This document shows positions 8,049 to 10,125 of a DNA stretch of 64,000 bases, in pieces. Location: assembly GCA_027625145.1 (NCBI GenBank), contig JAQBXK010000002.1, forward strand, positions 1 through 64,000. Direction: 5' to 3'. The notes beneath the pieces were generated by a model. It was not told the origin of the DNA and did not search any database. It worked only from the letters and a program-made list of their open reading frames with translations. The stretch comes from Pseudomonadota bacterium (GTDB lineage Bacteria > Pseudomonadota > Alphaproteobacteria > Puniceispirillales > Marisalimonadaceae). Numbering within the stretch: position 1 is the stretch's first letter; the number at the start of each line of letters is the position of its first letter. A program made the position numbers and the translations under genes.

Positions 8049-8077
8049 ACATACTTTTCTAATGATGGGAGAATTTG

Positions 8078-8446
8078 ATGGAAAAAAATATTATAGCAAT
8101 TAATGAATGCGCAAAAGAATGTCATATGGCAGCCGTTAATGGCGGATGGTGGCATGATGATAATGGAGTAAAAAAAGATAGAAATGTAGGTGAATTATTG
8201 TGTTTAATTCATTCGGAAATTAGTGAGGCTATGGAGGGAGCTAGAAAAGACTTAATGGACACACATCTAAAACATAAGACTATGATGGAAGTAGAGCTGG
8301 CTGATGCTATGATAAGAATTTTTGATTTAGCAGAATCAAGAGGGTTTAATCTTGGTGAAACTATATATGAGAAACTTGCGTATAATAAAACTAGAGCCGA
8401 TCATAAAATAGAAAACAGATTAAAGAAGGGTGGTAAAAAGTTTTAA
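8078..8446 (+). CDS. MazG-like nucleotide pyrophosphohydrolase
   Basis: This all-helical protein of about 122 residues belongs to the MazG/dUTPase-like pyrophosphohydrolase superfamily, which hydrolyses nucleoside triphosphates to monophosphates and pyrophosphate and is used for pool sanitation. The metal-binding pattern is visible: LLCLIHSEISEAMEGARK (ExxE) and then MMEVELADAMIRIFDLAESRG (ExxD). The WWHDDNGVKKDRN stretch at the N terminus resembles phage-like and marine MazG relatives. The start is ATG 8078 behind a GGGAGAA site; a TTG one codon upstream is less likely. It may be co-transcribed with azlCD. Substrate preference is unknown. Confidence 0.85.
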   Translation: MEKNIIAINECAKECHMAAVNGGWWHDDNGVKKDRNVGELLCLIHSEISEAMEGARKDLMDTHLKHKTMMEVELADAMIRIFDLAESRGFNLGETIYEKLAYNKTRADHKIENRLKKGGKKF

Positions 8447-9081: not shown

Positions 9082-10053
9082 ATGGATGTTTTAATGCGTT
9101 TAAGTATGTCTAATACTATGTCTCTTGAAGAGCATGTTGAAAAAATAAATAAAGCTAGAGATAAAGTTCAGGCAGGGATATTTGAAATGGCTGAAAATAT
9201 TACTGAAGCAGTAAGACAATTGGGTGGAAAACAGGTGGAATTAGCCATCAGATTAGGAATGTCTAAAGGAACACTTTCCAAATGGATTTCTATTGGATCA
9301 AATACTATTATAATGACTATGAAGGAAGATGCTCCTTCCTCTTTTAATTCTCTTTATCAATTAAGCTCATTAGATAACCAATATTCTAAATATTATGGTG
9401 AAGAAGAAGGAAAAGAAAAATTTACCAATCTTTTTAAAAATAAAAAAATAACAAATTTTTCAGATAGAAATGACATAGCACGACTTATTAAAAGTCATAA
9501 AGAAATTATAAAAGAAGATGAAGTTAAAGAAATTAAACATTTGGTTTCTAATAATATAGAAAGCGAAAATAAAATAATTAAATCTGAAATTAGACTAAAG
9601 GTTTTAGTAAAATCGAACCTTTTCTTTAATACAATAATTGTAATTCCATCATTAGATCAAATTGAAATGTGGAAAAATTGTGAAGGCGATGAATTTATTA
9701 ATGAAGATTATCCAATTGGTAATCTTGAAAACTCAGATCAAAATATTTTTCAACAATGTTTAATTAAAATAAAAGCTAAAGATATAGAAGTGGGTTTAAA
9801 ATGCCTTAAAAGTTGGGGCTATGTATATAGTGATATATTAATGCCTAATCAGCCCAAAAAAGGCTTAGTGAGCAAATCTTTGGAATATTTAGTCCTCAAA
9901 GGAGAAAGGGGGGAACCTAACGAGGTTAGTTCATTTATTAAGTCTCATAGCACTTCTGATTTAATGGCTTATGCAGAGAAAATAGGTCAAAAACCATTTT
10001 TATTAGTAGGGGATGTAACCGTTCTAAAAGAATGGGTTTATTGCGTAGGTTAA
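9082..10053 (+). CDS. Helix-turn-helix protein with a degenerate MT-A70-like methyltransferase domain
   Basis: This is a 323-residue soluble protein. Residues about 40-75 form a helix-turn-helix (QVELAIRLGMSKGTLSKWIS), as in KorB/ParB-like or Cro-like DNA-binding proteins. Residues about 75-175 are charged and helical and probably act as a linker. Residues about 180-323 resemble MT-A70 adenine methyltransferases in order and spacing: NTIIVIPSLDQ where the DPPW catalytic strand would be, LKCLKSWGYVYSDIL about 60 residues later (compare the WGF motif), LEYLVLKGERGEPNE (compare ELLLxGxRGxP), and a SHSTSDLMAYAEKIG tail (compare HSRKPDE). The DPPW signature is absent, so methylation is unlikely. 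I infer a DNA-binding regulator built on a dead methyltransferase fold. Several in-frame ATGs make the start uncertain. Confidence 0.7.
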   Translation: MDVLMRLSMSNTMSLEEHVEKINKARDKVQAGIFEMAENITEAVRQLGGKQVELAIRLGMSKGTLSKWISIGSNTIIMTMKEDAPSSFNSLYQLSSLDNQYSKYYGEEEGKEKFTNLFKNKKITNFSDRNDIARLIKSHKEIIKEDEVKEIKHLVSNNIESENKIIKSEIRLKVLVKSNLFFNTIIVIPSLDQIEMWKNCEGDEFINEDYPIGNLENSDQNIFQQCLIKIKAKDIEVGLKCLKSWGYVYSDILMPNQPKKGLVSKSLEYLVLKGERGEPNEVSSFIKSHSTSDLMAYAEKIGQKPFLLVGDVTVLKEWVYCVG

Positions 10054-10057
10054 TTCA

Positions 10058-10085
10058 AAATAAGTTTCTCATGAGAAACTTATTT
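10058..10085. terminator. Bidirectional rho-independent terminator
   Basis: A 28-base perfect palindrome (AAATAAGTTTCTCA followed by its reverse complement) sits between two convergent genes and begins four bases after the upstream stop. A-rich sequence on the left and TTTTTC on the right give a U-tract in both directions, so it should end transcripts from both sides. Confidence 0.85.
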
Positions 10086-10125
10086 TTCTTAAGTTAAGAG
10101 TATTATTTTCGCTTTTATTATTACA

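Follow-up and report, generated by a model that had tools for sequence, protein, structure and literature searches.

The gene at 9082..10053 on the forward strand of the window, by which we mean the whole 64,000-nucleotide stretch of DNA analysed here, encodes a protein in which a helical DNA-binding domain of the KorB/Noc/ParB type is followed by an MT-A70-like domain that is predicted to be inactive. We consider the chances about even that this is a site-specific DNA-binding pseudoenzyme which originally served cytosine-hypermodifying enzymes as a partner or regulator and was later retained on the chromosome in a regulatory role. The reading frame is intact (ATG to TAA, 323 amino acids), and both its position and the peptides quoted from it in the first-pass annotation are present as claimed. 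Translation may in fact begin at M5 (nt 9094), because most homologues align from residue 5. The gene is present as a single copy in the window genome. Its conserved upstream neighbour on the same strand (8075..8446), mentioned here for context, has no Pfam or NCBIfam match and is, as we assume from its sequence, MazG-like. Single-sequence searches with the protein itself yielded only weak helix-turn-helix (HTH) matches.

Residues 172-323 (9595..10050, forward strand) are assigned to the MT-A70 family as a Rossmann domain on the basis of an AlphaFold2 (AF2) model, a fold search and profile comparison. The model was built from 13 sequences (mean pLDDT 80, pTM 0.48). Its best 50 Foldseek matches in the PDB were without exception MTA1-type or METTL3-METTL14 complexes (best E 5e-6), and every one of the best 50 VIA-align matches was an MT-A70 family chain, with residues 164-323 superimposing on METTL3 370-549 (Z 12.5, rmsd 3.2, 140 residues aligned). 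The Pfam family PF05063 was not matched by the window protein even at E <= 10, nor by any of six family members scanned (E limits 10, 10 and 0.05), so the link to MT-A70 needs profiles or structure to become visible. When a C-terminal profile of the family (12 sequences, residue 165 onward) was compared by hhalign with a profile of 26 alphaproteobacterial MT-A70 proteins, the score was 58.1 and the probability 94.8% (26 of 30 fetched matches were used; L091, L098, L103 and L104 contained no whole ORF, and L077 was omitted). One hundred column-shuffled profiles reached at most 19.3, the reversed profile 12.2, the N-terminal half of the protein 11.1, and a profile of C5-cytosine methyltransferases (C5-MTases) 16.2 at a probability of 0.2%. 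Judged by profile and predicted structure, the match to MT-A70 exceeds chance. The segments follow each other in MT-A70 order, i.e., DPPW, the strand before WGF, WGF, G-x-RG, HS-x-KP and the final W, with WGYVYS, EYLVLKGERGEPNE and SHSTSDLMAYAEKIG at the positions of WGF, G-x-RG and HS-x-KP, respectively. The proposal that residues 180-323 follow MT-A70 enzymes is thus in agreement with both the fold comparison and the profile score, while the 'HS' that had been quoted along with it is peculiar to the window copy (one of 28 chromosomal rows). A family HMM also recovered two true MT-A70 proteins from a small ORF set (E 5e-4 and 2e-3); these match Pfam at 2e-33 and 4e-33, and both reside in phage loci bearing CmoA.

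In the profile alignment, the position equivalent to DPPW is occupied by IPSL (I188-P189-S190-L191, 9643..9654, forward strand), just as the first-pass annotation had stated that the motif is replaced. A search for homologues that retain DPPW, which the annotation had suggested, found the motif in none of the 34 aligned family members. Throughout the 28 chromosomal rows, the position of its Asp holds I, V, F or S and P189 is invariant; three viral rows (L113-L115) retain a lone Asp at the first motif position, within DLKK or DLQK. Equivalents of HS-x-KP, LFAR and GNE are absent from the family alignment, the LFAR-like segment reading LLVGD or LFIGE. In METTL3, S-adenosylmethionine (SAM) is contacted by D395, R536, H538, N539, D377, I378, F534, N549 and Q550 (PMC10932547). 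The equivalent of D395 is lost in the chromosomal members, and the family chain stops at the position aligned with METTL3 549, before the last cofactor contact. Because the D395 site is gone, the LFAR-like segment is changed and the chain ends at 549, loss of catalysis in this family is a firm prediction from alignment and model, and SAM binding is likely to have been lost as well. Fold, profile comparison and missing DPPW together lend support to the suggested architecture of an HTH joined to a catalytically dead MT-A70-like domain.

Two ways of reading the C-terminal domain differently can be weighed directly against these data. Coincidental convergence on a Rossmann-like domain, instead of homology with MT-A70, would fit the missing direct Pfam match in the six members scanned and the identity of only about 15% in the alignments. 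It is nevertheless very improbable, since the best 50 VIA-align matches come from the MT-A70 family throughout, the profile score is three times that of the best shuffle and the C5-MTase control profile stays at its negligible probability. An active enzyme that methylates DNA or RNA via residues other than DPPW might call upon the first-position Asp of L113-L115 and the invariant P189. We find this hardly credible given the I, V, F or S at the Asp position of all chromosomal rows, the absence of the three further motif equivalents and a chain that ends short of the last cofactor contact.

The N-terminal domain (residues 11-158, 9112..9555, forward strand), which includes HTH helices at about residues 51-72, was modelled separately by AF2 from 19 sequences with a pLDDT of 90.5. 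Residues 28-148 matched KorB in VIA-align with Z 9.5 (8qa9_A, 106 residues) and 9.1, Noc with 8.1 and also ParB chains; this concerns a small helical domain in a predicted model, where Z values below about 13 can mislead. Among the best 50 matches, the top 17 belong to the ParB superfamily, and the next is Fis with 6.0. Foldseek likewise placed Noc and KorB first, at E values of 0.2-0.4 (best 0.23). A passing remark in the first-pass annotation that the protein could be KorB-like and derived from a plasmid or phage gains support from the KorB match. The ParB CTPase domain (PF02195) was not matched, the chain beginning with the HTH domain, and HTH_ParB (PF17762) was not matched above its cut-off, the best score being 18.0 bits against 22.6 in a single homologue (L027). 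Several other candidates were discounted: the NCBIfam matches to EppA (4.4e-5; 23 bits, cut-off 60) and MntR (1.5e-3) as weak, PDB entry 2h09 (MntR, 0.002) as covering the HTH only, phrog_4779 and phrog_4715 as weak matches, and four Asticcacaulis ParB matches from a plasmid tblastn (E 0.6-0.8) as restricted to the HTH part. Residues 12-80 (9115-9321) also match the PADLOC candidate defence family PDC-M64C with an E value of 4.5e-5, a match confined to the HTH part that may be real.

Homologues are rare, being found in 30 of 58 genomes of the family and in 31 of 136 genomes of the SAR116 order, many of which are incomplete; the genus includes one further genome, in which none was matched. Class-wide, two of 385 genomes matched, both from the SAR116 order, and phylum-wide two of 398, namely the window genome and an HTH-only match in a 233-aa protein. 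Full-length homologues outside the order were not found in the samples searched, and the named relatives of the protein are mostly SAR116 cluster genomes. Of two scans of genome contigs, the first returned no homologue and the second 30. A tblastn search of phages with the window protein gave nothing, nor did pattern scans of viral contigs with this protein, query A1 or two divergent homologues. With L131 as query, plasmids gave no match and phages only two weak ones in a tail-fibre gene (E 0.06), which we judged to be chance.

At the chromosomal loci the surroundings are strongly conserved. A gene that we take to be MazG-like lies upstream of the homologue at all 29, and a presumably AtuA-like gene lies downstream at 28, the remaining locus running off its contig. 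The window locus keeps the MazG-like neighbour with a UPF0114 gene interposed, and the AtuA-like neighbour is missing. Across 27 orthologues (L023, which has an internal stop, L027 and the fragment L030 were omitted), median dN/dS was 0.17 for the HTH domain (313 pairs) and 0.20 for the MT-A70-like domain (279 pairs), indicating that both domains are maintained by purifying selection; the linker between them (residues 145-171) gave 0.69 (277 pairs). In L023 (G042:C4:157435-158364), as also in L064, an in-frame TAA splits the orthologue, which reflects either a sequencing error or recent loss. In a tree of 20 rows (15 chromosomal and five from the cytosine-modification modules described below, with L114 omitted as a near-copy), the 15 chromosomal rows form one clade (100/99), which L074 adjoins (98/93); the tree has long branches, lacks an outgroup and is unrooted.

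Six divergent relatives reside on apparently mobile DNA, each directly before a C5-MTase gene whose ORF it overlaps by 16-44 nt in all six cases (longest frames, as called), and in five of them a CmoA-like gene precedes the homologue. The same gene arrangement is found in the phage pathway to 5-carboxymethylcytosine (5cxmC), made up of CmoA, CmoX and CmoY and described for Synechococcus phage S-B43, in which R350 of CmoX holds the carboxymethyl group of Cx-SAM (PMC12783734). In L031, a complete 2.75-Mb genome from another family of the order, and in L074, a SAR116 single-cell genome that also has a chromosomal copy, the homologue sits between the CmoA-like and the C5-MTase gene. The CmoA matches of these two (103-104 bits against a cut-off of 193) fall short, as is expected because the relatives are divergent. 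The C5-MTase of L074 carries an N-terminal Asn-synthase-like segment (weak, Pfam E 0.007), and a resolvase gene lies upstream. A 200-aa ORF downstream of the C5-MTase in L031 (L031:4984-5586, G077), devoid of Pfam and NCBIfam matches, may belong to the module.

When the CmoA and C5-MTase neighbours served as queries against viral contigs, 21 loci emerged, and four of these (L113, L114, L115 and L131) contain the homologue; a later scan with query A2 led back to these four and to no further contig. Among the phage loci, two (L122, L127) encode true MT-A70 proteins with DPPW and one (L130) encodes a ParB_N protein. L113-L115 share the order resolvase, CmoA, homologue and AsnSynthase-C5-MTase fusion (the resolvase profile match was checked for L115), and L113 runs on into the type I restriction genes HsdM, HsdS and HsdR, so these contigs may represent mobile islands rather than viruses. 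The stretches L113:1082-8828 and L115:425-7071, with resolvase, CmoA-like gene, homologue and CmoY-CmoX fusion, are island-like, and a host-side instead of a phage use of cytosine carboxymethylation is possible from their gene content; in L115, two unassigned ORFs lie downstream of the fusion. L131 has no CmoA on its 4.5-kb contig and encodes a C5-MTase fused to a Tet_JBP-like domain (L131:1528-3603; E 8e-8, 32.1 bits against a cut-off of 34.9). With CmoX of phage S-B05 as a ruler, in which F25, E47, F48, D69, C98 and R350 fall on the expected letters, the R350 position holds Arg in L031, L074, L113 and L115 and Asn in L131. The enzyme type therefore follows its context, Arg being CmoA-linked and Asn TET-linked, and the homologue accompanies both.

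Relatives of the protein occur inside operons of the CmoA/CmoX(/CmoY) type in which the Cx-SAM arginine is retained, whereas the window gene has no such neighbours: cmoA and cmoX are adjacent to the homologue in L031, L074 and L113-L115 and not in the window. CmoX was not matched in the window genome at E <= 1e-20 and was matched in six of the 136 order genomes, two of which carry the module. Its rarity in the order, and the missing match in the window genome in particular, imply that the chromosomal protein works without CmoX and that a partner role cannot apply there. The first-pass annotation had proposed that the protein recognises or blocks adenine methylation sites, and nothing was found in favour of this. 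No PF05063 match exceeded the cut-off in the 136 order genomes, among them the window genome (about 96% complete), so there is no obvious METTL3-like partner, and the relatives in operons pair with C5-cytosine methyltransferases instead. The comparison with METTL14 that had been drawn holds for the degenerate MT-A70 fold and not for the active MT-A70 partner. METTL14 and MTA9 do share this fold with degenerate catalytic and cofactor residues, MTA9 lacking the catalytic motif of MTA1 and almost all of its SAM residues (PMC9174199), but the window protein is bacterial and HTH-fused, and its module relatives pair with cytosine enzymes. MT-A70 methyltransferases proper (PF05063) have fold and segment order in common with the window family, which differs in lacking DPPW and a Pfam match and in having an N-terminal HTH. 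With KorB, Noc and ParB the protein shares the predicted fold of residues 28-148 and a candidate palindrome with parS-like GTTTC arms, but it has no ParB_N CTPase, and the pseudo-MT-A70 domain takes the place of the C-terminal dimerisation domain. Archaeal fusions of a ParB CTPase with MT-A70 are listed in PMC12704722 and differ from the CTPase-less form described here. Titles and abstract openings in the open-access literature on bacterial MT-A70 with HTH or ParB, inactive MT-A70, SAR116 MT-A70 and 5cxmC with restriction-modification contained no report of this architecture, and a term search of PMC12783734 found neither SAR116 nor helix-turn-helix named.

Immediately downstream of the gene lies a perfect 30-bp palindrome (10057..10086, no strand assigned), whose 14-bp palindromic core TTTCTCATGAGAAA (10065-10078) starts 12 bases after the stop codon. 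It is a candidate binding site and could also be a terminator hairpin, with a calculated energy of -11.3 kcal/mol compared with -1.1 for the L070-type copy. The same core follows the gene in L070 and L072, whose proteins are about 49-52% identical; it occurs with 1-3 changes after the gene in L059, L049 and L052; most other orthologues are not followed by it. L113-L115 carry TTTCTTATAAGAAA immediately upstream of cmoA, and L131 carries GTTTCACACGGGAAAC before the homologue. The window genome contains three exact copies of TTTCTCATGAGAAA (none for a reversed-pattern control), and exact copies (1-3 sites per genome) occur in 22 of the 136 order genomes, 21 of which belong to genera g1 and g3. 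One copy recurs 7-87 bp beyond tRNA-Gln in flanks that cannot be aligned; these loci were mostly selected for exact TTTCTCATGAGAAA, and other g3 spacers carry 1-4 mismatches. Examples with diverged flanks are G005, G007, G009, G020, G027 and G038, among others in g1 and g3. Several of the tRNA-Gln copies have no adjacent T-run. Besides tRNA-Gln, sites also lie near a YaaA-like gene and at the gene for the protein. The arms of the core (GTTTC/GAAAC) resemble parS, and in at least 13 genomes TTTCTCATGAGAAA and a canonical parS pair lie on one contig, 9.6-11.9 kb apart (about 10.7 kb). Two g2 genomes in which no copy of the gene was detected have homologous spacers at a similar distance from parS, and these do not contain TTTCTCATGAGAAA. 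Across the order, the site is present in 16 of 31 genomes with the gene and in 6 of 105 without; within g1 and g3 there is no association (16 of 30 with and 5 of 12 without, p 0.73), so the order-level co-occurrence reflects clades. Binding of the protein to TTTCTCATGAGAAA is a tentative proposal from sequence, which we place somewhat below even.

The protein may be purely a transcriptional repressor, its HTH acting on few operators (its own gene, the tRNA-Gln region) and merely controlling cytosine-modification operons, while the pseudo-MT-A70 domain only dimerises or senses a ligand. The palindrome directly upstream of cmoA in L113-L115, those after the gene in the window, L070 and L072, and the mere 1-3 exact sites in genomes having any all speak for this serious if rather unlikely alternative; against it, the module gene follows CmoA and overlaps the C5-MTase gene that comes next, which is commoner among subunits than among controllers. 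We regard as improbable a Noc-like protein of the centromere region or nucleoid, which would join ParB as a second DNA binder of this type and act near the origin, at a parS-like site. The match of the HTH fold to Noc and ParB, the parS-like arms and the recurrent proximity to the parS pair would suit such a protein, but a CTPase domain for clamp sliding is missing, the site lies beside tRNA-Gln with others at the gene and near the YaaA-like gene, and the distance to parS may be due to synteny alone, as it is similar in the two g2 spacers that lack the site.

The DNA-binding pseudoenzyme to which we give even chances would work as follows. The KorB/ParB-type HTH, lacking the ParB CTPase domain, would read a palindromic site. 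The MT-A70-fold domain, from which the catalytic motif and the counterparts of most residues that bind the cofactor have disappeared, is probably no enzyme but, like METTL14 and MTA9, a surface for dimerisation or partner docking. Where it is mobile, the protein would be a translationally coupled partner or regulator of a C5-MTase that builds hypermodified bases, either 5-carboxymethylcytosine together with CmoA or a TET-processed base, and in SAR116 it would have been retained without the C5-MTase as a chromosomal regulator. A more specific version, which we consider unlikely, is that ParB-type HTH and dead MT-A70 domain form a targeting or sensing subunit of cytosine-hypermodifying enzymes (carboxymethylation, C5-MTase-TET) that SAR116 has domesticated, with its own parS-like palindrome TTTCTCATGAGAAA at the gene and in the centromere region.

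Eukaryotic complexes are the source of the inactive MT-A70 subunits with which we have compared the protein. If a bacterial counterpart fused to an HTH does accompany cytosine-hypermodifying enzymes, the fold would have been reused as a DNA-bound scaffold across base chemistries. ParBc proteins without known function have been reported near CmoX, and the family provides a concrete candidate for such unexplained DNA-binding accessory proteins (PMC12783734). It also offers a testable candidate binding site in an ocean lineage, SAR116, that is described as ubiquitous in surface waters (PMC12262181).
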